64,000 nt of DNA from Sorangium aterium. GTDB taxonomy: Bacteria > Myxococcota_A > Polyangia > Polyangiales > Polyangiaceae. The stretch is from positions 3,100,001 through 3,164,000 of the forward strand of contig NZ_JAQNDK010000001.1 in the NCBI RefSeq assembly GCF_028368935.1. Direction: 5' to 3'. The notes beneath the pieces were generated by a model. That model was not told the origin of the DNA and did not search any database. It saw nothing but the letters and a program-made list of their open reading frames with translations. The position numbers and the translations under genes were made by a program. Below are positions 14,538-39,564 of the stretch, piece after piece. Positions within the stretch are counted from its first letter, which is position 1. The number at the start of each line of letters is the position of its first letter.

Positions 14538-14540
14538 TCG

Positions 14541-17984: not shown

Positions 17985-17997
17985 GGGGCCGCGGGCC

Positions 17998-18206: not shown

Positions 18207-20729
18207 ATGGCGGAGCCGTCCGACGATCCGTTTGGCCTCTCGGGGCAGACCATCGAGGGGAAGTACCGCGTCGCCGCCGTCATCGGCGACGGCGGGTTCG
18301 GCGTCGTCTACCGCGGGATGCACGAGGGCTTCGGCGAGCTCATCGCGATCAAGTGCCTGAAGCTGCCGGCCTCGCTCGACGCCGCGGAGCGGGACGCGCT
18401 GCTCGAGACGCTGCGGGGCGAGGGGCGGATCCTGCACCGGCTGTCGCGGGCCACCTCGGGCATCGTGCAGGCGCTCGACGTCGGCGCGTTCACCACCCAG
18501 GCCGGCGTGTGGGTGCCCTACCTGGTGCTGGAGTGGCTCGAGGGCCAGACGCTCGGGCAATACCTCCGGGAGCGCCGCGAGCGGGGCGAGGCCGGCATGT
18601 CGATCGCCGAGGCGATCCAGCTGCTCACGCCGGCCGCGCGCGCGCTCGCCGTCGCGCACGCGCACAAGGTCGCGCACCGGGACGTGAAGCCGGCGAACCT
18701 GTTCCTCACCCAGGTCGGCGGGGCGCGGACGCTGAAGGTGCTCGATTTCGGCATCGCCAAGGTGCTGTCCGATCACCCGACGTTCACCGAGGCGCTCGCC
18801 GCGACCCGGCAGGGGCCGAGCGCCTTCACGCCGCGCTACGGCGCGCCCGAGCAGTTCAACAAGGCCCGCGGCGCGACGGGCCCGTGGACCGACGTGTTCG
18901 CGCTCGGGCTCATCTTCGTCGAGCTCGTGAGCGGCAGGCGCGCGCTCGAGGGGGACGACCCCACGCAGCTCTACGTCGCCTCGGCCGACCCTGCGGTGCG
19001 CCCGACGCTGCGCGCGCGCGGGCTCCCTGACGCGCCCGAGGCGATCGAGCGCGTGCTCGACAAGGCGCTCGCGATCGAGCCCAAGCACCGCTTCACGAGC
19101 GCAGGCGAGTTCTGGGACGCCCTCTCGGCCGCGGCGCACGGCGAGCGCGCGGGGTCCTTCGCGGGTCGGGGCGGTTCCTCCCCGGAGCAGGCGGCGGGGC
19201 AGTCGACCGCGGAGTACGCGGCAGCGCAGGGGCTCGGCGTGGCCGTCGGGCCGAGCGAGCCGACGATGCTCGCCGACGCGCACGCGCCCGCCCCGGCGCG
19301 GCCTGCCGTCGTCAAGGTGAGCCAAGGCGCGAGCGGGCCGCAGGCCGCCGGCGCGAGCGGGCCGCAGGCCGCCGGCGCGACGGGCGGCGCGGCGCCTCGG
19401 GCGCGAGACGGGGCCGGCGCGCTGGCGACGGGGGGCTCCAGGACCGCGCAGGTCGAGGACTCCATGATCGAGACGGTCGCGCCGGCCAGACCCCCTGCGG
19501 CCGGCGCGGCCCCGCATCTCGGCGCGGCCCCGCATCCCGGCGCCGCCCCGCACCCCGGCGCCGCCCCGCACCCCCAGGCCGCGGCGGGCGGGCCGCCGCA
19601 CGCCACGCCGCCGCCGCACGCCGCGCCACCGCACCGTCGCAGCACCGCGCGCGCGGCGCTTCCCTGGTTCGTCGCGGCGCTCGTGCTCGGGGGCGCCGGC
19701 GCGACGGCGTATGTCCTGACGCGGGCGCCCGACAAGAAGCCGGCGAAGGCGCCGGCCGCGCGCACCACCGCGGCATCGTCCGCCGGGCGTACCGCGCCGG
19801 CCGCGGCGGGCGTGCCGGCGCCCGCCACCGCCGCGCCGACGGCGAGCGCCTCGGCCGCGGCGCCTTCCGCCGAGCCCGCCGCGCCCGCGGCGCCGCCGGC
19901 GGACATGGTCTTCATCGGGCCCATCTCGACCACGATCGGCGCCGCGGGCGAGGCGCGCCAGGTGACGCTCACCCGCGGGTTCTACATCGATCGCAACGAG
20001 GTGACCGTCCGCGCCTACCGGGCCTGCATGCAGCAGCGCATGTGCTCCACGGCCGATCACGTCTCGCTGACGCCCGAGCTCCTGCCCGGCGCGCAGGCGC
20101 CGGTGGGGCCCGAGGAGCAGCGGGAGGTCGAGCTCTGGACGCGGCGCTGCAACGAGCCCCGCAACGCGACCGGGCACCCGATCAACTGCGTCGACTACTC
20201 CCAGGCCGAGAGCTACTGCCGCTTCCGCGGCCGGCGGCTGCCCACCGAGGCGGAGTGGGAGGTCGCCGCGCGCGGCGCGGCCGGCCGGGCGTTCGTCTGG
20301 GGCGACGAGGCGCCGGCCTGCGAGCGCGCCTGCTACGACCGCAACGAGGGCTGCCTGGCGCGCGGCGCCGACGTCTCGACGTGCGCGTCCGGCGCCCACC
20401 CGAGCGATCGCACCCCGGAGGGCATCTACGATCTCGCCGGCAACGTGTCCGAGTGGGTCTCGGACGGCCTCGTCTTCCCGCCGCCCGGCGGCGAGAACCC
20501 GCAGGGCGACCCTTCTTTCCCGCTGAAGGTCGTGCGCGGCGGGAGCTTCCTGGACGGCCCCGAGAAGCTCTCCGCCACGTACCGCACCGCCGCGGCGCCC
20601 GTGACGGCACACGCGTGGATCGGCTTCCGCTGCGCCATGGATGCGCCGGCGCAGGACGGCGCCGCCGCGCAGCCGCCCGCCCCCGCGCCGCAGGCTGCGC
20701 CGGCCGAGCAGGGAGCGGCGGCGCCCTGA
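18207..20729 (+). CDS. Membrane Ser/Thr protein kinase with C-terminal formylglycine-generating-enzyme (FGE/SUMF1) domain
   Basis: 840 residues. The kinase domain spans about 20-310: GDGGFGVVYRG (P-loop), IAIKCLK (Lys), HRDVKPANLF (catalytic loop), LDFGIAKV (DFG). A long Ala/Pro/Gly-rich linker with a histidine-rich repeat of APHPG units follows, then one membrane helix (about 484-506, WFVAALVLGGAGATAYVL). Outside, the FGE-sulfatase domain (about 565-812) has GFYIDRNEVTV, RRLPTEAEWEVAARG, YDLAGNVSEWV and VVRGGSF. Domain order is typical of myxobacteria; the FGE part is likely a sensor or binding module. ATG has AGGAGCGGGGC upstream. Confidence 0.93.
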   Translation: MAEPSDDPFGLSGQTIEGKYRVAAVIGDGGFGVVYRGMHEGFGELIAIKCLKLPASLDAAERDALLETLRGEGRILHRLSRATSGIVQALDVGAFTTQAGVWVPYLVLEWLEGQTLGQYLRERRERGEAGMSIAEAIQLLTPAARALAVAHAHKVAHRDVKPANLFLTQVGGARTLKVLDFGIAKVLSDHPTFTEALAATRQGPSAFTPRYGAPEQFNKARGATGPWTDVFALGLIFVELVSGRRALEGDDPTQLYVASADPAVRPTLRARGLPDAPEAIERVLDKALAIEPKHRFTSAGEFWDALSAAAHGERAGSFAGRGGSSPEQAAGQSTAEYAAAQGLGVAVGPSEPTMLADAHAPAPARPAVVKVSQGASGPQAAGASGPQAAGATGGAAPRARDGAGALATGGSRTAQVEDSMIETVAPARPPAAGAAPHLGAAPHPGAAPHPGAAPHPQAAAGGPPHATPPPHAAPPHRRSTARAALPWFVAALVLGGAGATAYVLTRAPDKKPAKAPAARTTAASSAGRTAPAAAGVPAPATAAPTASASAAAPSAEPAAPAAPPADMVFIGPISTTIGAAGEARQVTLTRGFYIDRNEVTVRAYRACMQQRMCSTADHVSLTPELLPGAQAPVGPEEQREVELWTRRCNEPRNATGHPINCVDYSQAESYCRFRGRRLPTEAEWEVAARGAAGRAFVWGDEAPACERACYDRNEGCLARGADVSTCASGAHPSDRTPEGIYDLAGNVSEWVSDGLVFPPPGGENPQGDPSFPLKVVRGGSFLDGPEKLSATYRTAAAPVTAHAWIGFRCAMDAPAQDGAAAQPPAPAPQAAPAEQGAAAP

Positions 20730-21145
20730 GCTGAAGCGCTGAGCCCTCGTCCTCCCGCGCGGCATCGCCGGATCCGGTGCCGGGAGTCCGCGGATCATCG
20801 ATCCGACAGCGCCCGGGCGGGGCGTTTAGCTCGATTCCTGAGCGCTTTTTCTGGATCCTGGGTAGATCAATCTGGTTCCCAGAGTCGATTCTCTCGATGT
20901 GGCTTTCGATCACCTGGATCCTAGAGAATTAATTCTGAACGGAGCTTTCATTTAGCCAGGATGCAGAGTTAATTTTCTAGATTCCGCCTAGATTTAGTTA
21001 GTTTCCTGGCTGAGATGCCTCGGTGCCGCTGATCCCGGGGCCCCGCCAGGCCAGCGCCGAGCCGCCGCCCAGCTGACCGACCACGACGAGATCCGCTCCA
21101 AGAGCGTCGAACAGAACCTCCCGTCACCACGCAATCGAGGAGCTA
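20730..21145. other. Non-coding stretch with an AT-rich island
   Basis: The part 20825-21005 is strikingly AT-rich compared with the flanks. It contains CTGGATCCT twice (20851-20859 and 20914-20922), the perfect palindrome AGAATTAATTCT (20925-20936) and several TAGATC/TAGATT/GATTC motifs. No coding frame is convincing. It lies between the kinase gene and the Uma2 pseudogene, whose ends face each other. Confidence 0.6.
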
Positions 21146-25497: not shown

Positions 25498-26697
25498 ATG
25501 AGGCGTTGGCTACTGGCTTTGGGCGTGTGCGTTTCCACCGCGGCGTGTGGTAACGGATCGGATGGGGACGCTGCCGCGAGCGGGGGCGCGGTTGGCACGG
25601 ACAGCGGTGCGACGGGCGGCGGGGGCACGGCCTCCGGTGGTGCGACGGGCTCTGGGGGAACGGCCGAAAGCGGCGGCGCATCCAGCGGCGGCGCATCCAG
25701 TGGTGGGGCTGGCGGCTCGGCGCCGGGCGGCTCGAGCGGGGCCACGGGTGGCGCGGCTTCGGGCGGGCAAACGGGCAGCGGCGGCCAAGGAAATGCCGGA
25801 AGCGGCGGCTCGACCGGTAGCGGCGGCTCGACCGGTAGCTGCGTCGGCGACCCGTTCCCCACGGCCGATCCTACCAAGACGGGCCCCTTCTCGGTCACCG
25901 CAGACAAGAACGTCGGCCCCCTCGCCGGCGTCGTTCCCGATCCGATCTATGGGGACGAGCAACAGCGCTTCAACGTGTACCGCCCGAGCAATATCGCAAC
26001 CAGCGGCCACTGCCATCCGATCCTGATCTGGGCCAATGGCTACCGGGACAATCCGGAGCAGAAGCCACCGAAATGCGTCGTCAACTCCGGCAGCAATCAG
26101 TGGTGCGGACAATACGGACCGATCGTCAACCATCTCGCGTCCCACGGTTTCGTCGTGGTGGCTTCTCTCAGCACCGCGACCGCCGATGGCGATCCTCTTC
26201 CCACGACCGCGGGCCTCGATTGGATCTTGGAACAAGCCGAGGATGCGAGCAGCCCGTACTATCACGCCCTCGACACCACGAAGATCGGCCAGCTTGGCCA
26301 TTCCTATGGGGGCATGTCGACTTGCAAGACGGCCTCCGATCCCCGTTTCTCGGCCCTCGGCACGATTTGCGGCACCACTGCCCTCAAGGGAGTGCACACC
26401 CCCATGTTGTTCTTCTGCGGGGGGAACGACTCCACGGTGAAATGCAGCGGGGTCCACGATGTCTTCAAGACAGTCACCGATCAGCCCGCGTTTTTCCTCA
26501 ACGAGCTCAAAGCGGATCACGGTAGCTGGGTCTATCAGGGCGCAAATGGCGTGTCCCTGTCGTCGGCCGCGGCCTGGTTCCGCGTTCATCTGATGGATGA
26601 CACAGCGAACAGGAACTTCTTCTACGGCGACAACTGCAAGTTCTGCACCGATGGCCGCGCGCAAGCAGAGCAGAACGCCCTGATGAAGGTCCCCTGA
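25498..26697 (+). CDS. Lipoprotein alpha/beta-hydrolase of the PETase/cutinase-like (dienelactone hydrolase) type
   Basis: 399 residues from ATG 25498. A lipoprotein signal ends STAAC (about residue 17), followed by about 100 residues of Gly/Ser/Thr linker. The hydrolase domain (about 120-395) shows the nucleophile elbow GHSYGGMST, an Asp in CGGNDSTVKC and a His in KADHGSW, the catalytic triad order of polyester hydrolases such as cutinases. Several Cys pairs (for example CVVNSGSNQWC, CKFC) may form disulfides. Expected to be surface-anchored and to cleave esters or polyesters. Cutinase-like substrate is an inference. Confidence 0.8.
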   Translation: MRRWLLALGVCVSTAACGNGSDGDAAASGGAVGTDSGATGGGGTASGGATGSGGTAESGGASSGGASSGGAGGSAPGGSSGATGGAASGGQTGSGGQGNAGSGGSTGSGGSTGSCVGDPFPTADPTKTGPFSVTADKNVGPLAGVVPDPIYGDEQQRFNVYRPSNIATSGHCHPILIWANGYRDNPEQKPPKCVVNSGSNQWCGQYGPIVNHLASHGFVVVASLSTATADGDPLPTTAGLDWILEQAEDASSPYYHALDTTKIGQLGHSYGGMSTCKTASDPRFSALGTICGTTALKGVHTPMLFFCGGNDSTVKCSGVHDVFKTVTDQPAFFLNELKADHGSWVYQGANGVSLSSAAAWFRVHLMDDTANRNFFYGDNCKFCTDGRAQAEQNALMKVP

Positions 26698-27081
26698 GCG
26701 ACGGGGCCGATCTGGCTAGGCTTCACTGACTCACGAACGTCGTCACGCTCATGGCTTCGAGGGCCATCGGGAGCGTGGCGTCCGTTACGGTGACGGGAGT
26801 TCCTTCGGCCCAGTTCTTCGAAGCGGCGGTCACGAAGGGGACCATCGCGCTTGGCGCGGTGCCGCCTGCGAAGGCGAGCGCGGCCCAGATCGGCGTGGGT
26901 GCCGGCGGTGAACGGTGAACGCTGCCGATCATGGGGCCGCGGTCTTCACCGATCGGACGCGGGACGCGATGATCACCGACAGTGCGTCCCGAGACCGACT
27001 GACAGGCCCGCCGGGCGGTTCGGGCGTGGCGCATCGCCCCCGCGGGGCGCCGGCACCACCGGCACGAGGATTCCGCTGCCA
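26698..27081. other. Intergenic region with a glycoside-hydrolase tail remnant
   Basis: About 380 bases between the hydrolase gene and the 3' end of the radical SAM gene. It holds the minus-strand remnant listed next. No terminator stem stood out. Confidence 0.45.
26723..26900 (-). pseudogene. C-terminal fragment of a secreted glycoside hydrolase
   Basis: The minus-strand frame ends VTVTDATLPMALEAMSVTTF followed by VSQ and a stop. The ending S-V-T-T-F-V is characteristic of the C-terminal beta-sandwich of GH30-like and related secreted glycosidases. Nothing catalytic is present, so it is a fragment. The family assignment is tentative. Confidence 0.4.
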
Positions 27082-29064
27082 TCATATCATCGAGAGTCGT
27101 CTCGCCTGCGGCTTCGCCTCCGTGGGCCTCATCGCCTCCGTCTCCCGGCTTGCCGATGCCACGTAGTGATTTCGGAGCAATTCATCCCTGGGTCTCAGCG
27201 CCAGGGAGATGAAGTGGCCTTCCACCTCGAGCGCGAGGCGCCGCTCGACGAGCTCACCGAGCAGCCGCAGGACCTTTTCCTGCTGGAGCCCGGCGGCCGC
27301 TGCCGCTCGCCCTGGCTCCATGCCGGCGTGGCACAGATCATAGATGCACGCCAGCTCCCCATCGAGAACCGTCTCGACGAGATCCCCGGAGCGCTCGTCC
27401 CTGATGAGCAGCTCGCCCGGGCTCACCCGGTGGACTTCCATGGCCGGGATCCCACGCTTCCACTGGACGTGCTCCTCGTACCACCCGGCAAAGCTACGCC
27501 AGCCTTCCATCACGCCGGGCTCAAACCATCCCTCGGGCGCGGAGTAGCCGTAGTATGGCACGAGGAATCGCTCGACGCCCTCCAGTCCTTCCAGATAGGT
27601 ATCGGGCCTGAGCCGCGCCATCTCATCAGGACCGAGCTGGTTGAAGAGAGGGCTTCCATAAGACAACGTATAATCCGACAGGCTGTAGCTCCCCAGGTGA
27701 GGCGTCTCCTCGATGATCCGCTGTGTCTCGGCGATATCATCCATCGTCGAGCGGGGGTGCCCGATGATCAGGTTCGAGAGCGAGCGGATGCCCAGCTCCT
27801 TCAGCCACTTTTGAACGAGGATGTTCTGCCGCGCCCTGGTCCCCTTGTTCATTCGTCGGATCAGCGACGAGGACAGGGACTCGATCCCGACCTGAGCAGC
27901 ATCGACCCCGGCCAGGGCCAGCTTTGTCCAGAACCGTTCAGGGTGGTGCGCCCGGAGCTCCATCGTCGCTGGAATCTGGATGTTGAGCCGTATCAGCTCA
28001 TCGGCATAGCCCTCCGCCCACGTGTCGCAGACGTTGTCCATGAACAGGATACGTCGCACCCCGTAGCGCTTGATCATAGCCAGCACATCCTTGACGATGT
28101 CCCCCGCGAGCCGCTTTCTGAAGCCCTCCCAGTTGACGTTGATGCCGCAAAAATCGCACTTGGCGAAGCATCCCCGGCTCCCCTCGACGGGAAGCAGCAC
28201 GTTCTTGCTGAACGGTCGGATCGCCTCCGCGCCCCGGAACACCCTCCTGATGGCCCGGAAGTACTCCTCCAGATCCGGGACGCCGAGGTCTCGGATGGAT
28301 ACGAGCTGCGAAGCGAAGTTCGCCGGATCTCTCTTGAAGAGATCCATCTGGTTGGTCTGGATGTCATAGATCCCCTGCACCTCGCCGGGGATGCTGTCGT
28401 GGAGACGCTCCATCTCGCTCAGGGGGGTGCGCAGGTAGGCGCCCGCGAGCAGCTCCAGCTTCTTCTCCCCCTCTCCGAGGACGCCAAACCCGCGGATACC
28501 TAGCCGCTTCAGCACGTCGGCGACGCTGGTCGCCGCCGCGCTCGCCCCGCCGAACACGAAGACGCACCTGTGATCCGGGTACCTCTGGCCCAGGTAGAGG
28601 GCGCAGTAAATGGACGAATAGACCTGGTTGTAATTGAGCGTGAAGCCGACCAGGTTCACGCCGTTCCGGATGAGCTCCGGCCCCAGCGCGGCGTCGATGT
28701 ACCTGTGCGTCGCGCTCCTCAGGCGGGTCAGCGAGCGCTTCGTGAGCTTGACGCGACCGCGCTTCGGAGCGTTCACGATCGAGAGCAGCTCGTCGAGGGA
28801 GGGGGCCCCCTCGACGGACCCGCGCGGCCTGATGAACCGCTCCAGAGCGAGGAGGAAGTACGGGAACTCCCTGAACTCCGAGAGCTCGGAGTACAGGTCC
28901 GACTCGCCGGCGTCGAGGAACACCGAGCAAAATGCAGAGTATGTGTTGGTCGTGAAACGGCCGGGGAACGCGACATCGAGGTGCGCCTTCAGCGCGCCGA
29001 GCTGGACCGAGGGAACATAGACATCGGCCCACGGCATCGACACCAGGTGTGTCTTGATCCTCAT
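27082..29064 (-). CDS. B12-binding radical SAM RiPP maturase
   Basis: 660 residues. The N-terminal part (about 1-230) looks like a cobalamin-binding domain (GVNLVGFTLNYNQVYSSIYC, then CVFVFGGASAA). The radical SAM core starts at GSRGCFAKCDFCGIN near residues 296-310, giving the CxxxCxxC [4Fe-4S] site, then VRRILFMDN and VGIESLSSSLIRRMNKG. The C-terminal 90 residues (GELACIYDLCHAG, VLRLLGELVERRLALEVEG) look like a small winged-helix, possibly precursor-binding, domain. It matches RiPP maturation radical SAM protein 1 in layout. Last gene of the cluster; probable reaction is a C-methylation or other radical change on the peptide. Confidence 0.85.
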   Translation of the reverse strand: MRIKTHLVSMPWADVYVPSVQLGALKAHLDVAFPGRFTTNTYSAFCSVFLDAGESDLYSELSEFREFPYFLLALERFIRPRGSVEGAPSLDELLSIVNAPKRGRVKLTKRSLTRLRSATHRYIDAALGPELIRNGVNLVGFTLNYNQVYSSIYCALYLGQRYPDHRCVFVFGGASAAATSVADVLKRLGIRGFGVLGEGEKKLELLAGAYLRTPLSEMERLHDSIPGEVQGIYDIQTNQMDLFKRDPANFASQLVSIRDLGVPDLEEYFRAIRRVFRGAEAIRPFSKNVLLPVEGSRGCFAKCDFCGINVNWEGFRKRLAGDIVKDVLAMIKRYGVRRILFMDNVCDTWAEGYADELIRLNIQIPATMELRAHHPERFWTKLALAGVDAAQVGIESLSSSLIRRMNKGTRARQNILVQKWLKELGIRSLSNLIIGHPRSTMDDIAETQRIIEETPHLGSYSLSDYTLSYGSPLFNQLGPDEMARLRPDTYLEGLEGVERFLVPYYGYSAPEGWFEPGVMEGWRSFAGWYEEHVQWKRGIPAMEVHRVSPGELLIRDERSGDLVETVLDGELACIYDLCHAGMEPGRAAAAAGLQQEKVLRLLGELVERRLALEVEGHFISLALRPRDELLRNHYVASASRETEAMRPTEAKPQARRLSMI

Positions 29065-29139
29065 GGCGACCCCCCATCGATTGAATTCTTGTTTCCCGTG
29101 CCGCGAATCGCCGCTCTCTTCCTGAACATAGCGCCTCGA

Positions 29140-29739
29140 TCACGCATCTCGCGGCCTGCTCGATCGAACCTGCCGGGCGTCCTTCGCGGACGGCGTATAC
29201 TTCATGGCCAGCGTGAACCGCGACACGGGGCACACCCTGCTCGGAATGCCCGCGCAGTGCCATGTCGCGCCCGGGAAGATCAAGACGCGCCCAGGGGCCG
29301 GCAAGACAGCCAGGTTGAAGGCCCCCGAGTCGTCGTAGAGCATCGTCTCTCCCCCCCATTCGCGGTCCCAGCGCGGGTTGGCGTAGTAGAGCACCGTCAC
29401 GTCTCGGCGACGCGGCTTGCAGTCGACGTGCGGGTAGTTGACGTCGCCGTAGGACGTCTGGTTGACGTACGCCTTGTAGAGGTGGTGGGGCACGTCCGCG
29501 CAGCACTGCTTCATGAGGCCGAAGACGTCCTCGTAGAAGAAGAGCGACTGGAACGCCTCGAGGTCCACGAAGTGCGCCACCATCTTCGGGAAATGATCCG
29601 CGCTCGAGCTGAGCTGCCCTCGGTAGTAGACGTAGGACTCCGAGAGGGTCCGGTAGACCTGCTCGATCTTCTTCTTGCGGAAGAGGTGATCCACGAGGAT
29701 GACCTTGCGTCCGTTGACCGTCGTTTCTTGTATCTTCAT
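29140..29739 (-). CDS. 2-oxoglutarate/Fe(II)-dependent oxygenase
   Basis: 199 residues from ATG 29739. The facial triad is visible: NYPHVDCKP (His-x-Asp near residues 104-106) and TWHCAGI (distal His near 160), followed by the 2OG-binding Arg in SRFTLAMKY. The segment DVTVLYYANPRWDREWGGET is typical of prolyl-4-hydroxylase-like double-stranded beta-helix enzymes. No signal peptide. It is 75 bases upstream of the radical SAM gene and 64 bases after the glycosyltransferase, so it is probably a tailoring hydroxylase of the same pathway. Confidence 0.85.
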   Translation of the reverse strand: MKIQETTVNGRKVILVDHLFRKKKIEQVYRTLSESYVYYRGQLSSSADHFPKMVAHFVDLEAFQSLFFYEDVFGLMKQCCADVPHHLYKAYVNQTSYGDVNYPHVDCKPRRRDVTVLYYANPRWDREWGGETMLYDDSGAFNLAVLPAPGRVLIFPGATWHCAGIPSRVCPVSRFTLAMKYTPSAKDARQVRSSRPRDA

Positions 29740-29803
29740 CGCCCGCGATGTCTCAGGGAACAGAGGCCAGCATCCGGGAGGGGACGGGGAGCGCCGTGAA
29801 GCC

Positions 29804-31087
29804 CTATGCGCTGACGAATCCATGGAACATGGTATGTAGATCCTCCATGTACTCGTCGAAATCCTCCCACATGCGCGAGAGGAGGAGGCCACGACGGCCG
29901 AGCTCCTCCGCCTCCCTGGGGTTGCGCGCGACCCATTCGAGCTTGCTGGCCAAGGCTTCGTGGTCCCTCGGATCCGGCACGAGGAGGCAGTTCTCTCCGT
30001 CCACGAGGCCCTCCTTGTAACCTCGTTTCTTGTGGATATCACCCGACAGGACGAGGCAGCTGCCGCACGCGAGCACCTCTCTCGGTACGCCCGGCGTGTG
30101 GTAGTCGATGAAGAAGTCTCGCTCCAGGAAGCACGTCGCCGTGGTGGCGTTGATGAGGCTCGGGATCACCCAGTTCGGCATGAACGGGAGCAGCCAGACG
30201 TTCTCCTCCACCCGGTTTTCGCGGATGAACGCGGCGAGCTCGCGGCAGCTTTTCTCGGCGCCGCCGCACATCATGATCGCCTGGACGTCGACGCCCCGGC
30301 GCTGCACCATCCCCAGCGCCCGGATGAAGTCGAACATGCCCTTCGCATGATCGATCTTGCCGTACATCCCGAGCGTGGGGACACGGGGATCGAACGTCTT
30401 CGGGGCGGATTCGCGGAAGCACGCATGGAGCCAGTCGTGGCCGGCGAGCGCCTCCGCCAGGCGCTCGTTCACGTCGAGCCTCGGCGCGCCGGGGCGGAAG
30501 CAGTGCGTGGGGAGGGAGTCGGAGCCGAGGTGGTAGAGCCGCCTCTTCTTCACTCCGAGCCCCACGAAGAGGTCATCGAAGTGCTTCGCCGTCACGACCC
30601 TGTGCGCCCGCTTCAGGATCTCGGCGTAGGAGGTCCTCAGCCACGGCCTCGTCATCAGGACCGAGATGTCGCTCCCCGCGTGCGCCAGGACGCAGGGGAC
30701 CCCCGTCCATTGCGCCGCGAGAGATGCAGCCATCCCGTACGGTTCCAGGTAGTAGGCGTAGATCAGATCGCAGGCGTGCTCCCTGACGATGTCCGTCGCC
30801 ATGGAGGCCAGCTTGGTCACGTACGGGTTCGCCCAGGGGACGTAGAGGTCGTACGCAGGGCGCTCCGACGAGACGCAGCGGACGGAGCCGCCGTTCGCGA
30901 AGCGGATGTGCAGCCGCCGCTTGTCGGATGGGGTCATGACCATCCGGTAATCTGCCTCTGCTTCGTCGGCGTTCGTGACGACCCAGACCTGATTGCCGCG
31001 CTTGGCGAGCGCATACGCCATCCAGTAGGTCCGGGTGCTGACGCCCCCTTGAATGGGTGGGAACTTGCTGATGATGCAGATCTTCAT
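29804..31087 (-). CDS. GT4-family glycosyltransferase
   Basis: 427 residues with a GT-B fold. The N-terminal Rossmann domain starts KICIISKFPPIQGGVSTRTY with the GGV loop. The C-terminal donor domain has LGMYGKIDHAKGMFDFIRAL and the nucleotide-sugar motif region FIDYHTPGVPREVLACGSCL with the conserved Glu in the E-x7-E position. Likely retaining transfer of a hexose from a nucleotide sugar. It follows the MNIO partner gene by 46 bases on the same strand. A peptide-glycosylating role is inferred only from context; a capsule-type enzyme would be the default elsewhere. Confidence 0.85.
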   Translation of the reverse strand: MKICIISKFPPIQGGVSTRTYWMAYALAKRGNQVWVVTNADEAEADYRMVMTPSDKRRLHIRFANGGSVRCVSSERPAYDLYVPWANPYVTKLASMATDIVREHACDLIYAYYLEPYGMAASLAAQWTGVPCVLAHAGSDISVLMTRPWLRTSYAEILKRAHRVVTAKHFDDLFVGLGVKKRRLYHLGSDSLPTHCFRPGAPRLDVNERLAEALAGHDWLHACFRESAPKTFDPRVPTLGMYGKIDHAKGMFDFIRALGMVQRRGVDVQAIMMCGGAEKSCRELAAFIRENRVEENVWLLPFMPNWVIPSLINATTATCFLERDFFIDYHTPGVPREVLACGSCLVLSGDIHKKRGYKEGLVDGENCLLVPDPRDHEALASKLEWVARNPREAEELGRRGLLLSRMWEDFDEYMEDLHTMFHGFVSA

Positions 31088-31133
31088 CGCGCAAATCTCC
31101 TCGCTGCAGGCGCAGGCGTGCCCGGCGTCCGCC

Positions 31134-31778
31134 TCAGCTCAGCTCGCCTCTCAGCAGATTGCAGGGATCCTCGGCGGCTTGCTTCGAGAGCCGGTGCGTC
31201 ATCACGCTCTGCCTGTCGCGGGAGTAGTAGATCGCGTAGATGGATTCTCCTCTGCCCTGAAGGACGCTGATGCGATCGATGGCTGGATACAGGTCCATGA
31301 CGTTCGAGGCGAGCTTCATGCAATAGAGGTGGCCGCTGTCGTGGATCCCGAAGCGGGAGGTGTCTACCTTGAGGCGCCCCGTGATCCGGGGCCGCGCCTG
31401 ATGAAACTGCGCGAGGGCGACCGCCCGCTCCACCCTCAGGAGGTCTTTGTACAGACATGCGCCGTCCAGGCGCTCCGCCCATGAATACAGGACGCCGAAG
31501 ATCTTCTTGATCATGGCGCCTCGATCGGTATCCATGCTCACTTGAGAATAGAGGCAGTCCCAGAGCCGCCGCCTCCTCGCCGTGAGGCCGCAGAACACCG
31601 GGTAATGGCTCTTGACCGAGCGCTGTATCGAAGCCCTGAACGACGTGGCGATGCTCGCCAGGCACGACTCGCTGTACTGGGATAGCTCGTCGCCGAGCTC
31701 AGCTCCCTCGACAGGCCCACCCTGGACGAGGCTCCTCAGGTAGCGCTCCTGCCAGCGGGCGACGCTCGCGCGGCTCAT
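31134..31778 (-). CDS. Probable MNIO partner protein (HvfC/TglI/MbnC-like)
   Basis: 214 residues starting at ATG 31778, which overlaps the MNIO stop as ATGA (31775-31778), so the two are translationally coupled. Residues about 20-90 are helical with SVKSHYPVFCGLTARRRRLW, and LYKDLLRVERAVALAQFHQA near residue 115-135 matches the D-L-x-R-L-E-W-A helix of DUF2063-type partners. The rest is beta-rich (HLYCMKLASNVMDLYPAIDR, YAIYYSRDRQSVMTHRLS). In known systems such a protein binds the precursor leader and forms a complex with the MNIO. Sequence is divergent; assignment rests on coupling plus these patterns. Confidence 0.7.
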   Translation of the reverse strand: MSRASVARWQERYLRSLVQGGPVEGAELGDELSQYSESCLASIATSFRASIQRSVKSHYPVFCGLTARRRRLWDCLYSQVSMDTDRGAMIKKIFGVLYSWAERLDGACLYKDLLRVERAVALAQFHQARPRITGRLKVDTSRFGIHDSGHLYCMKLASNVMDLYPAIDRISVLQGRGESIYAIYYSRDRQSVMTHRLSKQAAEDPCNLLRGELS

Positions 31779-32587
31779 CGCTGGCACATCCCTCGAATCC
31801 GGACGAGATCATCCCACACCCTGGGCAGGTCCTTGAAGCGCGCCTCGCGCTCCAGGATCACGGCCTCCGGGGTCACCCGTGTCAGGAGGTGCTCCAGCAG
31901 CTCGAAGACGACCTGGGGGACCTCGTGGTCGTGGCCATCATAATAGTAACCGTCGTGCGAGGAGCCTCCGGCGAGGTGGAGCTGCCTTATACGGTGCGCC
32001 GGCATGCGATCGATGAACGCCCTCGCGTCCAGCCCGTGGTTGAGCTGGTCGGCGTACAGGTTGTGGAGGTCGAGCAGGATGCCGCAGTCGGCCATCTCGA
32101 CGGCCCGGGCAAAGAAGTCGTCGTGGGCGATCGTCGATCGCTTCAGCTCCCACATCGTGGCGATGTTCTCGAGCAGGAACGGCGCAGCGAGGCCCTCCTG
32201 AAAGAGCTTTATGTTCTCCACGAGGATCTGCAGCGTCTCGTCGGTCCGCAGCAGCGGCAGGTTCTTCTCGAGGTCGAAATCGCCGATGCGGCAGGACGTC
32301 ATGTGATCCGAGCACCAGCGCGGGGCCAACCGATTGACGATGTCGCGACGCTGCCGCGCGTTGCGGTCGAGCCGATAGTCGGCGCTGCCCAGCGAGTTGC
32401 AGGCGAAATGAAAGCAGTACGACGTGCCGAAGTCGGAGAGTAGCCGCTTCATCTGGCCCCTCTCGAAGTGACTGTAGATGTATCGCTCCGGCTGTATTTC
32501 CAGGAAGTCGACGAGCCCCTCATCCCTGGCTCGCCACAGCAGGTCGTGAAGCTCCGGATGGTAGCTCATGCCGATGTGAACAGCCAT
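31775..32587 (-). CDS. DUF692 / MNIO (multinuclear non-heme iron-dependent oxidase), RiPP-modifying
   Basis: 270 residues, TIM-barrel enzyme of the MbnB/TglH family. Metal-ligand motifs are in order: YCFHFACNSLG, CSDHMTSCR, PFLLENIATMWE, GILLDLHNLYAD, IRQLHLAGG, YDGHDHEVP, VILERE. Start ATG 32587 has GGGAG upstream. Known members oxidise cysteines of ribosomal peptides, for example to oxazolone-thioamide or to 3-thia amino acids. The substrate is probably the repeated Cys peptide encoded 234 bases upstream. First enzyme gene of a six-gene minus-strand cluster. Confidence 0.9.
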   Translation of the reverse strand: MAVHIGMSYHPELHDLLWRARDEGLVDFLEIQPERYIYSHFERGQMKRLLSDFGTSYCFHFACNSLGSADYRLDRNARQRRDIVNRLAPRWCSDHMTSCRIGDFDLEKNLPLLRTDETLQILVENIKLFQEGLAAPFLLENIATMWELKRSTIAHDDFFARAVEMADCGILLDLHNLYADQLNHGLDARAFIDRMPAHRIRQLHLAGGSSHDGYYYDGHDHEVPQVVFELLEHLLTRVTPEAVILEREARFKDLPRVWDDLVRIRGMCQR

Positions 32588-32821
32588 CGGATCACTCCCG
32601 TGAGGAGGCCGCTGCCGCGGGCGATGAGACGTTCCTCGGGTCCACGACGTCTGCCCGAGAATCCGTGAATCCGGCTCGCCCGTCGCCGTGCGACGACATG
32701 GGTCGGGACGGGCGAAATCGCGAGGTATGCAGGGGGAGTCCTTGCAGGCGGTCGTCCCCTCCGGGGCGTGTCGTGTCACCCAGCGGCCGGAGGGAATGGC
32801 GACGCACCTCCAGCACTACGG
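32588..32821. other. Spacer between precursor peptide gene and MNIO gene
   Basis: 234 bases on the minus strand between the peptide stop and the oxidase start. A 35-codon frame (ATG 32699 to TGA 32592) exists but lacks a ribosome-binding site. In RiPP operons such spacers often hold a partial terminator that raises peptide over enzyme mRNA; I see GC-rich stems near 32752-32770 but none decisive. Confidence 0.4.
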
Positions 32822-32995
32822 CTAAATTTTGGTCTTCTTGCTCGGCGTCGGGTCGTGCCGGCAAACGTGGGCGCTGGCGGCGGGCTTCGGGATGCTGATC
32901 TTCCGCGTGATGGGCGTCGGATCATGTCGGCAAACGTGGGCGCTGGCGGCGGGCTTCGGGACGTTCACCTTCTTGGATCGGGGCGTTGTAGACAT
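32822..32995 (-). CDS. Putative RiPP precursor peptide with two repeated cores
   Basis: 57 residues from ATG 32995, which has AAGGAG 7 bases upstream. After MSTTPRS come two 23-residue units: one starting KKVNVPKPAASAHVCRHDPT (8-30), one starting RKISIPKPAASAHVCRHDPT (31-53), then KTKI. The 16 residues PKPAASAHVCRHDPTP are identical in both. Each unit has one Cys flanked by His (H-V-C-R-H-D), the only cysteines in the peptide. No signal peptide or membrane segment. Placed ahead of an MNIO operon on the same strand, it is the natural substrate candidate. The frame is open further upstream to 33205, but the ribosome-binding site supports the short form. Confidence 0.8.
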   Translation of the reverse strand: MSTTPRSKKVNVPKPAASAHVCRHDPTPITRKISIPKPAASAHVCRHDPTPSKKTKI

Positions 32996-33137
32996 CCGAG
33001 GTCTCCTTGGAGCAATGGGCGATGAGCAGTACGCGGCGGTGCAGCGGCCGCAGGAGAGGTGGCCCTCACAAGTTACCGAGAATCCGCATCTGTCCGCAAG
33101 AAGAAGCGCCTCGCGCGAGCGGGCCCGGGGCTGGCCC

Positions 33138-34070
33138 CTAGCTCTCTTCCTCGTCGGTCGGCCCGTCGGCCGGCTCGGTGAGGGACTGGAGCACCTCCGC
33201 TGCATCGATCTCGCGGAGCCGCTTCACCAGCGCCTCGACGCGGGGCGCGATCCCCTCTCGGACGGTTGCAGCAAGGTGCGCCCCCCCTGCGGGGCAGTCT
33301 CCCCGGAAGGTCAGGTCCTCGGCGCACTCCCGCAGCGCGTCAGCCACCATCACCTCGACGAGGCGGTGCCAGGTGATCCGGTGGATCCCGGTGGAAATGT
33401 GGAGCGAGGGGCCCTCGACAGCGGTCGCCTCGTGGAGATAGCCGCGGGGGATGTACAGCGCTCCACCCGGCTGCATTTCGATCTCGCCCCAGCGCGGGGT
33501 CATCTCGCGGAGCTCGGCGGTGCGGCAGGCGTGGTGGCGGTGCAGCGGCGCCTCGAGGAGGGGCTCGTAGATGGTCCACCGCTTGCGCCCCTCGAGCTGG
33601 AGCACCACCACGTCGTGGGTATCCCAGTGGCGGGGGAAGGTCTGCGCCCCGCCCGGCGTGAGGTAAAGGTTCGTGTTGGCCTGGGCCAAGAGCGCTCCGG
33701 ACAGGGCGCTTGTGAGCGCACCGACGGCCGGGAAGCAGTCCTGCACCCCCGCGAGGAGCAGGCTACCCCCCTCCACCTCGAAGAAGCGCCGCACCCCCGC
33801 GCCGTCGAGCGCAGCGTCGGGCTCCGCCCGGAGGAAGCGTTTGGCGTCCACGTACTCCGACGTCGCGTCGATGAAGAACACCTTCTCAGGATGCACCCGG
33901 CCTTCCGCTATCGCGTCCAGCACCGCCTCGACGGTGGGCAGGTCGGCGAGGCCATCCCCGCCCTTCGGCGGTGAGGCGAGGGGCCAGTTCGGCGAGCGCC
34001 CGGAGGTGCGAGCGCCGCGGAGGAGATCGTCGAGCGAGCCGGGGATCAGCGACTCCATGGGGCAAGGCAT
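33138..34070 (-). CDS. JmjC/cupin-type 2OG-Fe(II) oxygenase (RoxA-like)
   Basis: 310 residues. The cupin core has HWDTHDVVVLQLEGRKRWTI near residue 147 (His-x-Asp iron ligands and the Lys/Trp 2OG-side motif) and GALYIPRGYLHEA near 212 (distal His). The C-terminal 60 residues are helical (VEALVKRLREIDAAEVLQSL). The family hydroxylates protein or peptide side chains, RoxA acting on ribosomal protein arginine. It lies 142 bases upstream of the precursor peptide on the same strand, so it may be an extra tailoring enzyme or only a neighbour. ATG 34058 is an alternative start. Confidence 0.8.
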   Translation of the reverse strand: MPCPMESLIPGSLDDLLRGARTSGRSPNWPLASPPKGGDGLADLPTVEAVLDAIAEGRVHPEKVFFIDATSEYVDAKRFLRAEPDAALDGAGVRRFFEVEGGSLLLAGVQDCFPAVGALTSALSGALLAQANTNLYLTPGGAQTFPRHWDTHDVVVLQLEGRKRWTIYEPLLEAPLHRHHACRTAELREMTPRWGEIEMQPGGALYIPRGYLHEATAVEGPSLHISTGIHRITWHRLVEVMVADALRECAEDLTFRGDCPAGGAHLAATVREGIAPRVEALVKRLREIDAAEVLQSLTEPADGPTDEEES

Positions 34071-34182
34071 GAAAAACGCCGCGGAGGACAGGAGACGCCA
34101 GGGCGGTCGTTCCTGTCAAGCACGGCCTGCCCGTGGGACCTCGGGGCGACAGTCCCTTCGCGCGCCTCCGCCGCGATGATCC

Positions 34183-34806
34183 TCAGCCAGCCACCCGCAC
34201 CGCCAGCGTCGCTCCCTCAGCGCTCGCCAGCCGGGCCAGCAAGCGCTCCTTCACCGCAGCCCATTCGCTCGCCAGGATCGAGAACAGCACGCTGTCACGC
34301 AGGCTGCCGTCGGCGCGCCGCATGTGCGACCGCAGCCCCCCCTCCCGGGTCCCGCCGATGCGCTGGATGGCGGCCTGGGAGCGCAGGTTGCGGACATCGG
34401 TCTTCAGCTCGATGCGCTGGCAGCCGAGTTGCTCGAAGCCATGCGTCAGCTGGAGCAGCTTGGCCTCCGTGTTGACGCGGGTGCGCTGCCACGCTGGCAC
34501 GATCCAGGTGCCGCCGACCTCGACGGACGGCAGCGCGGCGTCCACCCGGCGAATGCTGGTGCCGCCGACCAGCTCGCCCGTCGACGCGAGGCGGGTTCCG
34601 AAGGAGATCGCTTCTCCGCGGCTCTGCATCGCGAGCGCAAGGCGGATGACCTTCTCGACGTCCGCCGCATCGCGCATGGAGTAAGGGATGAACCGCCAGA
34701 CGTCGGGAGCGGACAGCGCGGCCCGCTTGATCTCGGGCAGCTGATCTTCGGACAGGGGCTGGAGCACCACGGCTTCGCCGCGGAGCGTGCTCGGGGTGAG
34801 GTGCAT
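34183..34806 (-). CDS. GNAT-family N-acetyltransferase (RimJ/RimL-like)
   Basis: 207 residues from ATG 34806. It has the RimJ/L pattern: VVLQPLSEDQLPEIKRAA, then GGTSIRRVDAALPSVEVGGT, WIVPAWQRTRVNTEAKLLQL (acetyl-CoA-binding loop region, modified) and QRIELKTDVRNLRSQAAIQR. The usual R/Q-x-x-G-x-G/A loop is changed to QRTRVNTEAK, which this subgroup often shows. Substrate unknown. Divergently transcribed from a MocR regulator across about 110 bases, which may control it. Confidence 0.82.
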   Translation of the reverse strand: MHLTPSTLRGEAVVLQPLSEDQLPEIKRAALSAPDVWRFIPYSMRDAADVEKVIRLALAMQSRGEAISFGTRLASTGELVGGTSIRRVDAALPSVEVGGTWIVPAWQRTRVNTEAKLLQLTHGFEQLGCQRIELKTDVRNLRSQAAIQRIGGTREGGLRSHMRRADGSLRDSVLFSILASEWAAVKERLLARLASAEGATLAVRVAG

Positions 34807-34895
34807 GTGGGTTCTTTCCGGGAGGCCGACCCCACCAACGAGCCGCGCCTCTCCCGGATGTTTAGCGCAGGCTGGTTGCAGCATTTCGTCCAGAT
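34807..34895. promoter_or_regulatory. Shared promoter region of the GNAT and MocR genes
   Basis: About 90-110 bases separate the two divergent starts. It contains a relatively AT-rich segment (GTGCGTTTATACTTCGAC near 34896-34913 if the MocR start is ATG 34917). MocR proteins usually regulate a divergent neighbour through repeats here, but I could not pick out a clear repeat pair. Confidence 0.35.
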
Positions 34896-36362
34896 GTGCG
34901 TTTATACTTCGACCAGATGGGTCCCTCTCCGAAGCCGCGCAGCGCCGTCTCCCGCGACGGTCGGCGCACGCGCTGGGTGCCCGTCGCGCAGGCGCTGCGC
35001 CGGGCGCTGGCGAGCGGCAGCCGCGTGGCGGGCGAGCTGCTACCGTCCACGCGCGAGCTGGCGAGCACCTATGGGGTGCACCGGCAGACGGTCATGGTGG
35101 CGCTGGACGCGCTATGCGCGGAGGGGCTGCTGTGCGCGGAGCCGCGCCGTGGCTATCGCGTCGCCCCGCCCGAGCCCGGGCCGCCTGCGCCGCGGCACGA
35201 GGAGCGCAGCGCTACGCGCTACCAGTTTCGCGTCGTGCGCGACCCCGGGCCGCCCCCCGCGGCGCTCGGCCAGGTGCGGTATCCGCTGCACGCCGCGACG
35301 CCCGATCCGGCGCTGTTGCCCCTGCGCGAGCTTCGGGCATCGTACGCGCACGTGCTCGCGCGGCGCGGCACGAGCGCGCTGCATGCTGCCGACGTGGACG
35401 GTAATCCGGCGCTCGTGCGGGAGCTGCTCGCCTACTTGCGGCGCGCGCGGGCGGTGCAGTTCGAGCGCTTGCTGGTCACGTGCGGCTCGCAGGAGGGCAT
35501 CGCGCTCGCCGCGCACACCTTGCTCGGACCCGGCGATGTCGTGGCCGTGGAAGATCCAGGATACTTCCCCGCCTGGCGGGCGTTTCGAGCGGCGGGAGCC
35601 GAGGTGGTGCCCGTCCCGGTGGACGCGCGAGGCCTGCACGTCGGCGCTCTCGAGCGGCTGCTGCGGCGGCGGCGCGTCCGGCTCGTGTACGTGACGCCGA
35701 ATCATCAGTATCCGACCACGGTCACGCTCTCGGCGCCGCGCCGCCGCGCGCTGCTCGACCTCACCCTCGCGCACGGCGTGCCCATCCTCGAGGACGACTA
35801 CGATCACGAGTACCACTATCGCGGCGAGCCTCAGCCTCCGCTCGCCGCCAGCCCGTCAGCGCCGCACGTCCTGTACGTCGCCAGCCTCTCGAAGCTGGTC
35901 GCGCCGGGCGTTCGCGTCGGCATGGTGTGCGGCAGCAGCGAGCTGCTCGACGTGCTCGCGCGGCAGCGCCAGAGCAGCGTCAGGGCGGGGGACGGCGTGA
36001 CGCAGGCAGCGCTCGCCGATTGGATCGCGGAGGGAGGCTTCGAGCGCCACGTGCGGCGTGCCCGGCGCGCCTACGCCGAGCGCCGCGACGCCGCGCTCGA
36101 GTCGCTGGCGCGCGCGGCGCGCAAGGTCCCTCTCGAGGTCACGCCTCCCGACGGAGGCCTGGCGGTCTGGACGCTCTGGCCCCGGCACCCGATCGTGGAG
36201 CTGGCGCGCCGCGCCCTGGTACGCGGCGTCGCCGTCCTGCCGGGCCCGCTCGCCACCCTCGAAGCGAGCAGCGCGGGCATGCGGCTCGCTTACGGCCGGG
36301 TCAGCCCCGCGCAGTTCAGCGCCGCGGTGAGCATCCTGGTCGACGAGGCAAAGCGGATGTGA
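34896..36362 (+). CDS. MocR/PdxR-family regulator (GntR-type HTH fused to aminotransferase-like domain)
   Basis: 488 residues. The N-terminal winged helix (about 20-95) has LRRALASGSRVAGELLPSTR and LASTYGVHRQTVMVALDALC. The fold-type I aminotransferase-like domain (about 125-485) has LLVTCGSQEGIALAAHTLLG, DPGYFPAWRAF, VTPNHQYPTTV, EDDYDHEYHYRGEP and SLSKLVAPGVRVG with the PLP Lys near residue 333. Such regulators sense PLP or an aldimine ligand. GTG 34896 or ATG 34917 may be the start. Divergent from the GNAT gene, the probable target. Confidence 0.9.
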   Translation: MRLYFDQMGPSPKPRSAVSRDGRRTRWVPVAQALRRALASGSRVAGELLPSTRELASTYGVHRQTVMVALDALCAEGLLCAEPRRGYRVAPPEPGPPAPRHEERSATRYQFRVVRDPGPPPAALGQVRYPLHAATPDPALLPLRELRASYAHVLARRGTSALHAADVDGNPALVRELLAYLRRARAVQFERLLVTCGSQEGIALAAHTLLGPGDVVAVEDPGYFPAWRAFRAAGAEVVPVPVDARGLHVGALERLLRRRRVRLVYVTPNHQYPTTVTLSAPRRRALLDLTLAHGVPILEDDYDHEYHYRGEPQPPLAASPSAPHVLYVASLSKLVAPGVRVGMVCGSSELLDVLARQRQSSVRAGDGVTQAALADWIAEGGFERHVRRARRAYAERRDAALESLARAARKVPLEVTPPDGGLAVWTLWPRHPIVELARRALVRGVAVLPGPLATLEASSAGMRLAYGRVSPAQFSAAVSILVDEAKRM

Positions 36363-38015: not shown

Positions 38016-38229
38016 ACTTCGATTTTTTCGCACGCGAGCTGGTCGGTGTGTAGATGGGCGCGTAGGCCGCCGGAAGCTTGGCCCACGGCGCAACGTGCAC
38101 CGCGCCGGCTCCAGCAGAAGCAACAGAAGCGGCACCCGAAGCCGACATGGCCCCACGACCGGGCGGCGCTCGTGCCAGCACGCACCAGCCCCTTCGCCTC
38201 CGCCCCCGGCGGGGCCGGCTTCACGTACG

Positions 38230-39564
38230 ATGGCGAGCGCCATGAGCAACCCGGAGATCGAGGCAGCGCTCGCGCTCGCGCTCGAACGCTGGGAGAAGAT
38301 GTTCCCCGTCGAGGACGAGCGCGCGAAGCTCGCGAGCTGGGATCCGCCGCACTTCGTGCCGGGGCTCGGCCTCGTGGCGGCGTTCAGCCTCTTCGAAGCG
38401 CGCACGAACCGAGGGCCGTCCGGCGAGCTGATCGTCGTGCCGCTCGCGCGGATGGGCGAGCCCGCGGCGGCGCTCGACGAGCTCGCCGCGACGCTCGAGG
38501 GGCTCAGGTCTCGCGGCGTCGCCTCGCAGCTCGACGCGCCGCTCGAGGCGACGGTGGGCCTCGCGCCGGCGCGTTACACCGAGGGCATGTTCGCGACCGA
38601 CGAGCTCGGGGCGCGCCGCCGCGCCGAGGCGCTCGCGTCGATGAACGCCCGCTTCGAGGCCGTGGCCACACGAATGAAAGAGGTCTATGGCCTGCGGCTG
38701 CCGCGCTACCTCGCGACCTTCGCGGCGTTCTGGCGCAGCCTCGACGACATGGAGCGGCAGGGGATGAGCCACCTGGGGCGCTCGCCGGGCGGGATCATGA
38801 TCTGGTTCGAGGACGGCGGGCTCGAGCGGAAGACGCGCGGCAGGCTCGACCCGCGGCTCGAGTGCCGGTTCCGCGCCGACCCGCCCGAGCTGGTCACCGT
38901 GATGTGGGGCGACTCCGACGGGCTGCACCATGGCCTGTGGTACGACGACCCCGCGGATCCGCCGACGTGCATCGCGCACAACTACGCGCGCGACTCCGCG
39001 GAGACCTGGAGAGACAGCGAGCCCACGCCCCTCGCGGTGCTCGCCGCCCGCGCGCGCGAGCTCATCTCGAGCCCTGACGAGGAGGAGCCGGCGCCGCTGC
39101 AGGTGTACGCCGCGCTCGCCGCCATCGAATGGTTCGAGGAGGCCGACCGCAAGGCCCTCGCCGAGGACCCGCCCGCGGAACGCTGGCTCGAGGCGGATCG
39201 CATCCCGACCCTCGGCACGTTCGGGCCCGCGCTGCCGCCCGGCGCCGGGAGCATCCGCGTGGGCTCGCCCGACGAGCGCGTGAAGGCGTGGAAGACGCAG
39301 CCGCCCCGCGTGCAGAAGTGGATCGAATCGGCGAAGCGCGATTGCGCCGAGGGGCGGCCCGCGGCGGCGCTGACGTTCGGGCTCGACCTGCACTGGCTCG
39401 ATAAGGAGGAATACCGCGACGCCGCGCTCGAGCTGCTGGTGATGGCGTACGAGAAGCTCGGGCGGCGCGCGCACGCGGAGACCGTGAAGGTGCATTATGC
39501 GCACCGCGATCTCCGGAGCGTGGGGGTGTTCCTCCGGCCGGGCGAGGAGGACGGCGCACCTTAG
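38230..39564 (+). CDS. Conserved protein of unknown function, possibly SUKH/DUF2228-like
   Basis: 444 residues from ATG 38230 (or ATG 38242). It is soluble with no signal peptide. The middle has PRYLATFAAFWRSLDDMERQ, GGIMIWFEDGGLERKTRGRL and PPELVTVMWGDSDGLHHGLW, then YDDPADPPTCIAHNY. The pattern of predicting a page-like knr4/SMI1 or HPF1 (DUF2228) fold is suggestive: P-x-E-h-x-T-V-h-W-G, D-G-L-H-x-G-h-W-x-D-D-P. The C-terminal 150 residues are helical. Function unknown; SUKH members can be toxin-immunity proteins, but no toxin gene is adjacent. Confidence 0.6.
   Translation: MASAMSNPEIEAALALALERWEKMFPVEDERAKLASWDPPHFVPGLGLVAAFSLFEARTNRGPSGELIVVPLARMGEPAAALDELAATLEGLRSRGVASQLDAPLEATVGLAPARYTEGMFATDELGARRRAEALASMNARFEAVATRMKEVYGLRLPRYLATFAAFWRSLDDMERQGMSHLGRSPGGIMIWFEDGGLERKTRGRLDPRLECRFRADPPELVTVMWGDSDGLHHGLWYDDPADPPTCIAHNYARDSAETWRDSEPTPLAVLAARARELISSPDEEEPAPLQVYAALAAIEWFEEADRKALAEDPPAERWLEADRIPTLGTFGPALPPGAGSIRVGSPDERVKAWKTQPPRVQKWIESAKRDCAEGRPAAALTFGLDLHWLDKEEYRDAALELLVMAYEKLGRRAHAETVKVHYAHRDLRSVGVFLRPGEEDGAP

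Follow-up and report, generated by a model that had tools for sequence, protein, structure and literature searches.

What is encoded by a reading frame of only 57 codons that lies directly before an MNIO (DUF692) gene and consists almost entirely of two near-copies of one 23-residue unit? We addressed this question in a 64,000-nucleotide stretch of Sorangium aterium DNA (hereafter the window), taken from a genome of 13.5 Mb in 7 contigs. Analysis of the frame, of the genes around it and of related loci in other genomes leads us to favour, with some confidence and considerable reserve, the reading that it is a RiPP precursor carrying two cores and that its product is a glycosylated peptide of the MNIO type.

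The duplicated reading frame

The putative precursor gene occupies positions 32822-32995 of the minus strand, encodes MSTTPRSKKVNVPKPAASAHVCRHDPTPITRKISIPKPAASAHVCRHDPTPSKKTKI and is the frame on which a first-pass annotation of this DNA had commented. A ribosome-binding site, AAGGAG (33003-33008, minus strand), is located 7 nt before its ATG, as had been stated. The description of the peptide as two near-identical 23-residue units could also be confirmed. Unit 1 (residues 8-30, KKVNVPKPAASAHVCRHDPTPIT; 32906-32974) and unit 2 (residues 31-53, RKISIPKPAASAHVCRHDPTPSK; 32837-32905), both on the minus strand, repeat with a period of 23 residues (69 nt) and have in common the 16 consecutive residues PKPAASAHVCRHDPTP together with a lysine four residues ahead of them, while the positions in between are occupied by V/I, N/S and V/I (unit 1 reads K-V-N-V here, unit 2 K-I-S-I). 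At the DNA level, no direct repeat reported for the region 26500-35500 is longer (65 nt, 86%). Both cysteines of the peptide, Cys22 and Cys45, are found within His-Val-Cys-Arg-His, one in each unit, in agreement with the earlier remark that the only two cysteines sit between histidines. The surrounding HVCRHD, present at residues 20-25 of unit 1 (32921-32938, minus strand) and residues 43-48 of unit 2 (32852-32869, minus strand), is the presumed site of modification. Only seven residues precede the first unit, supporting the earlier view that a long leader is missing, and no signal peptide on the precursor is apparent by eye.

Since the repeat is a tandem duplication, the question it raises is one of constraint and not of chance. 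Over the aligned 60 nt the two units differ at 8 bases. Four of these are third-position differences in the core that leave the residue unaltered; the other four fall in three codons and result in the conservative changes given above (BLOSUM62 sum 7). When 8 differences were placed at random, on the assumption that changes are independent and unbiased, three or fewer residues were changed in 3.8% of 100,000 trials, and in 0 of the 100,000 were three or fewer changes combined with a score of 7 or more. Protein-level constraint, on which the earlier reading of the repeat depended, is thus what the differences match in the precursor frame, with one antisense frame nearly as quiet. This antisense frame (32829-33974, plus strand; TTG start, 381 residues) overlaps both the precursor and the neighbouring JmjC gene; across the repeat, 16 of its residues are identical and 3 of its codons synonymous. 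Its changes are non-conservative (T/M, F/L and T/I), and it is read opposite to the recognisable JmjC gene and counter to the direction of the set. We take it as spurious, and it is probably open because its third positions face third positions.

Open frames come cheaply in a G+C-rich genome, and the same DNA is open on its plus strand too. The peptide is also rich in basic residues (12 Lys/Arg among 57). It could accordingly be a small, basic protein that is never modified, such as a metal chaperone or a nucleic-acid binder, or a spurious frame with the real precursor lying elsewhere, and the lack of homologues in the searches described below would suit either. This possibility appears improbable to us in view of the ribosome-binding site, the place of the gene before that of the MNIO and the constraint on the repeat; moreover, no better precursor candidate was seen among the 14 ORFs listed for 32560-33160.

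Homologues of the peptide were sought at several levels. In its own genome the peptide retrieved itself at 4e-32, the next 11 matches having E values of 0.46 or worse. In 289 genomes of the class, nine matches had E values of 0.01 or below, namely the peptide itself and eight others at 0.0016-0.008, and no convincing homologue was present among them. No homologue was found by tblastn in 80 MNIO loci at 0.01, and H.C.H[DE], PKPAA and similar motifs, searched for in the fetched flanks, had no match outside the window's own locus. The TBLASTN check that the first-pass annotation had proposed, for a homologue of the peptide beside DUF692 genes, therefore came back empty from own genome, class genomes and MNIO loci alike. 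Its MNIO-linked reading is supported in one part, as the gene is placed directly before that of an MNIO, and has so far gone unsupported in the other, no homologue beside another MNIO having been found in these searches.

The peptide may also be divided differently. Residues 1-19 could serve as a single conventional leader for both cores, in which case the second KISIPKPAASA would serve only as a spacer or be a remnant of the duplication. Such an arrangement has a precedent in the microviridin precursor AMdnA, in which several cores follow one leader (PMC5934393), and ordinary single leaders are also seen in the glycosyltransferase-linked relatives described below. However, the stretch K-hydrophobic-x-hydrophobic-PKPAASA is kept in both units with only the three conservative changes, which is what one would expect were the second copy also in use. 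We therefore regard a single leader as possible, if doubtful. Microviridin AMdnA, the cyanobactins and the ustiloxins resemble the window precursor in carrying several copies of one core per precursor (PMC5934393), and differ from it in being processed by other enzymes and, in the case of AMdnA, in having a common leader as against the seven residues before the first repeat of the window.

Enzymes encoded around the precursor

On the minus strand the genes follow each other in the order JmjC_2 oxygenase, 142 nt, precursor, 234 nt, MNIO, a 4-nt overlap, a 214-residue protein, 46 nt, GT4-type glycosyltransferase, 64 nt, 2OG-Fe(II) oxygenase, 75 nt and radical SAM protein. The stretch running from the precursor to the radical SAM gene has a G+C content of 0.63-0.65, as against 0.70-0.71 for the JmjC gene and for the GNAT gene that precedes it. 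The 4-nt overlap, the small gaps, the uniform G+C, the MNIO neighbour and the constraint on the repeat count in favour of a precursor; the lack of a homologous precursor beside another MNIO and the presence of one cysteine per unit, compared with Cys-rich relatives, count against it. The glycosyltransferase, 2OG, radical SAM and JmjC genes had not entered the first-pass annotation, and the likely chemistry therefore changes with them. The gene set yielded neither a transporter nor a protease, no RNA family was identified in 26500-35500, and the promoter and terminator scan gave no more than was obtained in shuffles. Elsewhere in the window, a 489-residue frame (38095-39564, plus strand) matches Histone PARylation factor 1 over a short segment (PF10228, 48 bits, residues 255-303), and towards the C-terminus of a frame of 1127 residues (17415-20798, minus strand) lies a DJ-1/PfpI domain (159 bits), the long N-terminal part of this frame having no family match.

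The MNIO (270 aa; 31775-32587, minus strand) matches PF05114 over its full length (residues 5-267; 198 bits, cut-off 25) and belongs to a divergent lineage. It keeps E30, H60, H95, E140, N141, D173, N176, N183, H204, G207, D217, H219 and E246, all invariant in the sense that they are kept in 38-39 of 39 aligned MNIO rows, including MbnB, TglH and 3bww. Its solved relatives are 8hci (84 bits), 3bww (73 bits) and MbnB (35 bits). Its scores fall well short of the cut-offs set for the BufB, HvfB, ApyH, ChrH and MbnB models, with 158 bits against a cut-off of 310 for BufB, 125 against 360 for HvfB and 44.9 against 325 for MbnB. In 317 class genomes, its own set aside, the best match shows 36% identity across 240 residues. 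A scan of an 84,980-species collection with the MNIO alone found nothing; a second scan with an MNIO alignment gave the 80 MNIO loci, and the closest full-length match among those listed, from Corallococcus, is 36% identical. In trees the window MNIO stands alone, no sister lineage being well supported.

The own genome contains seven matches to PF05114 above the cut-off, the seventh of which (C2:1509800-1510540; L015) is very divergent, scores 122 bits and forms a long branch in the MNIO tree. An MNIO is shared by the Myxococcaceae (L066-L076, from Corallococcus, Citreicoccus and Myxococcus), and in L066 and L073 its gene is flanked by a methyltransferase-like gene on one side and the gene of a partner on the other. 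The Corallococcus MNIOs were considered as relatives and set aside, L066 and L073 showing methyltransferase, MNIO and partner with no short precursor and no glycosyltransferase. In a Lysobacterales MAG, a 71-residue ORF containing LGCMACCSG (L079:8093-8308) lies directly before an MNIO gene.

A protein of 214 aa (31134-31778, minus strand), whose gene overlaps the MNIO stop by 4 nt, is presumed from its position in the gene set to be the partner of the MNIO. No family match and no solved relative were obtained for it, and no profile similarity to the partner proteins of L148, L151 and L080 (see below) was detectable. Its AF2 model, made with no alignment, has a pLDDT of 44, and Foldseek with this model gave 0 matches at 0.001 or better. 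In 309 class genomes there were seven matches at E values of 0.01 or below, including the protein itself, the six others lying at 0.002-0.01. Precursors lacking a signal peptide tend, according to Antoine et al. (PMC12452194), to pair with family-less DUF2063-like partners, a pattern that the 214-residue protein fits by position only.

The 2OG-Fe(II) oxygenase (199 aa; 29140-29739, minus strand) matches the NCBIfam 'FlmC family' at 172 bits, below the cut-off of 240, and the FlmC literature, in the excerpts retrieved, contained nothing on a 2OG enzyme. The radical SAM protein (660 aa; 27082-29064, minus strand) contains C299xxxCxxC and matches TIGR03975, the model for RiPP maturation radical SAM C-methyltransferases, over its full length at 199 bits, below the cut-off of 282; by this likeness and by its CxxxCxxC it is predicted to be a B12-type enzyme. 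Its relatives are found in 4 of 309 class genomes at 1e-30, the own genome included, and are 28-30% identical.

The JmjC_2 oxygenase (310 aa; 33138-34070, minus strand), encoded 142 nt upstream of the precursor, is a possible member of the cluster. Its nearest solved relatives are NO66 (72 bits) and MINA (60 bits), both deposited as histidyl-hydroxylases, and its match to the structure of the ribosomal arginine hydroxylase is weaker (34 bits). No relative was found at 1e-10 in five other genomes of the genus, which argues against a housekeeping gene. However, its G+C of 0.71, against 0.63-0.65 in the set, points the opposite way.

The set of enzyme classes encoded here comes closest to that of the biphenomycin clusters (bip and pbs), which comprise an MNIO, a hypothetical partner, a B12-type radical SAM enzyme, a JmjC/cupin hydroxylase and a short precursor (PMC12707348, PMC12257519). 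By extension, the radical SAM enzyme of the window could cross-link the core after oxidation by the MNIO, within H-V-C-R-H instead of F-x-F, and superposing AHVCRH on FHAFRF does bring H and R into line. This two-residue register is a weak match, noticed after the fact. The core motifs of bip and pbs are FHAFRF, FHTFMF or YHxYxY, preceded in BipA by a leader of 36 residues (PMC12257519, PMC12707348), whereas the window precursor has none of these motifs, carries HVCRHD twice, lacks a long leader and contains no aromatic residue other than histidine. The bip and pbs clusters also encode an arginase, a transporter and a TldD protease, and the window set is without all three (neither arginase nor TldD protease was among the scanned genes) but includes the GT4 gene. 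A biphenomycin-like cross-link in the window product seems to us quite unlikely.

A second comparison concerns the captophorins, oxazolins, fontiphorin and the bufferins, in which an MNIO acts on repeated Cys motifs (PMC13097082, PMC12452194); EGKCG repeats, for example, are converted by the MNIO to thiooxazoles and bind copper (PMC13097082). It is conceivable that the two units of the window peptide similarly stay joined as a metallophore, in which the modified cysteines would bind copper or another metal with the histidines of each H-x-C-x-H as ligands. In those systems, however, the repeats are of 5 residues (EGKCG), the precursors carry Sec signal peptides and the partners are of the DUF2063 type, whereas the window unit has 23 residues and its set contains no EGKCG or DUF2282 precursor and no match to a DUF2063 partner. 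No DoxX or metal-linked gene was identified in the set, no signal peptide is visible, and the word glycosyltransferase is absent from the main text of PMC12452194, which describes captophorin and bufferin clusters. On balance we hold a metallophore of this kind to be unlikely.

TglHI, which is involved in 3-thiaglutamate, and MbnBC, involved in methanobactin, contain members of the same enzyme family as the window MNIO. Neither of them is known to go with a glycosyltransferase. TglH acts on a C-terminal cysteine that is added by means of tRNA (PMC9016710), and the TglHI structure 8hi7 (PMC12452194) contains, like 8hci, the DUF692 protein that is the best solved relative of the window MNIO at 84 bits.

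Glycosyltransferases beside MNIO genes

A guide to related clusters was provided by the GT4-type glycosyltransferase (427 aa; 29804-31087, minus strand), most of whose closest relatives found adjoin MNIO genes. Profile searches with the alignments A2, A3 and A4, of 2, 3 and 4 rows, were carried out in overlapping genome samples and matched 2 of 108 genomes of the family (1e-40), 2 of 377 of the phylum (1e-50) and 6 of 273 of the class (1e-50); in all, the subfamily is found in 7 distinct genomes, that of the window included. An MNIO gene lies beside the glycosyltransferase gene, or is separated from it by the partner gene only, in five of the seven (the window, L148, L151, L158 and L159), and MNIO and glycosyltransferase adjoin in 4 of the 6 relatives fetched, some of which are MAGs and some fragmentary. 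No MNIO was found beside the glycosyltransferase in L160, where a methyltransferase takes its place, or anywhere on the 9.9 kb contig of L161. A further pair, L080, was reached through the MNIO and comes from a Bryobacteraceae MAG, of another phylum. Glycosyltransferases of the linked clusters (L148, L151, L158, L159 and L080) are 38-43% identical to that of the window. Their MNIOs are scattered over the MNIO tree, with 5 changes needed and no bootstrap tree requiring only one. As they do not form one clade, the pairing has either recurred or been kept while the MNIOs were exchanged.

Short Cys-containing, precursor-like ORFs are located upstream in L148, L151, L158, L159 and L160. The L148 cluster (G314, Sorangium; 7064-15510) comprises an ORF with seven cysteines towards its C-terminus, an MNIO, an HvfC-like partner, a glycosyltransferase 43% identical to that of the window and an Asn synthetase-like protein, besides a cupin-like protein and an ABC transporter that were both named by eye; it is a good candidate for a glycosylated RiPP in its own right. 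In L151 (G042; 7318-11147 and upstream) a Cys-rich ORF with the core TCLSCYCGSGCLCGS is accompanied by an MNIO, a gene in the partner position, a glycosyltransferase and an Asn synthetase-like gene. L158 (G119; 7239-10268) and L159 (G139) encode a precursor with the core GMSCCVIICRTWTPG or similar, an MNIO and a glycosyltransferase, with a PhyH-like frame before the MNIO in L158. In L160 (G116; 7046-11323) the L158-type precursor is present twice, together with PhyH and, where L158 has the MNIO, a methyltransferase; its glycosyltransferase match lacks the first 35 positions. The precursors of L158, L159 and L160 are nearly identical (LAPPSEANGMSCCVIIC...), and they are followed by PhyH and then an MNIO in one genome and by a methyltransferase in another, which looks like the exchange of one enzyme for another in a single type of cluster. 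L080 contains a cupin-like protein, a partner with weak NGO1945_C/ApyI-like matches, an MNIO, a glycosyltransferase 38% identical to that of the window and a PhyH oxygenase, with a candidate precursor several kb upstream. These clusters resemble the window in having a glycosyltransferase beside an MNIO, and L080 and L158 additionally in having a 2OG enzyme (PhyH-type). They differ in their single-leader precursors with more cysteines and, for L148 and L151, in the Asn synthetase-like genes.

In L148, L151 and L080 the glycosyltransferase has a C-terminus that matches the recognition-type domain at the C-terminus of the partner protein (hhalign probability 90.8%, E 1.2e-6), suggesting that these three enzymes bind precursor peptides. 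Relatives reach 634-656 residues, whereas the window enzyme ends at residue 427 and is without the recognition-type extension. Fusions of recognition domains to glycosyltransferases of another Pfam family, PF00535, have been described (PMC12710340). In the portions retrieved of the literature pairing glycosyltransferase with MNIO or with DUF692/RiPP, no glycosylated MNIO peptide is described.

The window peptide bears no significant likeness to the precursors of L148, L151, L080 and L160 (shuffle fractions 0.95, 0.05, 0.84 and 0.99, respectively). L161 (G148; 1809-7785) encodes a short ORF with a GG-type leader and the core FICTFDPNPAVDPIGPF at its end, two JmjC proteins that are 31% and 28% like the window JmjC, an oxygenase-like frame, a methyltransferase-like frame and a glycosyltransferase, and is possibly a JmjC-based RiPP cluster. 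Its core aligns with that of the window as PK-PAASAHVCRHDPTPS / PKFPGPVNFICTFDPNPA (VCRHDPTP / ICTFDPNP), and 727 of 20,000 shuffles were as good (0.036); this weak match, noticed after several ORFs had been inspected, is no more than suggestive.

A proposed pathway and its implications

Taking the frame as a two-core precursor of a glycosylated product, the following pathway can be proposed from the enzyme families and their neighbours. Recognition of the precursor would probably involve the short sequence K-(V/I)-x-(V/I)-P-K-P that precedes each core and that might supply the strand to which recognition domains bind. If so, each repeat would be a self-contained module of recognition part and core. 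The MNIO and its presumed 214-aa partner would oxidise one residue per copy, most likely the cysteine of HVCRHD. Hydroxyl or methyl groups or a cross-link would come from the radical SAM enzyme and the 2OG oxygenase, possibly joined by the JmjC protein; because HVCRHD has two histidines among its six residues, hydroxylation of histidine is a fair guess, no more. The GT4 enzyme would put a sugar on the peptide, and proteases from outside the cluster would separate the two copies.

A bolder scheme, which we put forward as a long shot, takes the peptide as a leader-free precursor of two modules in which HVCRHD would be oxidised by four metal enzymes (MNIO, 2OG oxygenase, a JmjC enzyme of the histidyl-hydroxylase kind and the radical SAM enzyme) and then O-glycosylated at the hydroxylated residue, yielding a His/Cys metal-binding peptide. 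Bleomycin contains a sugar-bearing beta-hydroxyhistidine part, and by analogy the product of this scheme would, on the same slim chance, be its ribosomal counterpart. A search for literature joining hydroxyhistidine with RiPP found none.

The chemistry of MNIOs is unusually varied, and many minor types of their substrates are still to be identified (PMC12452194). The peptide described here is a candidate substrate reduced to a minimum and written twice, encoded beside an MNIO of a lineage that has no close relatives. One GT4 subfamily occurs beside MNIOs in several Polyangia-level relatives and in an acidobacterial MAG. This suggests that there is a group of glycosylated MNIO peptides, for which the glycosyltransferase may be used as a handle in genome mining. 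Should the repeats each include a recognition part of their own, they would provide portable tags for testing how these enzymes recognise their substrates.
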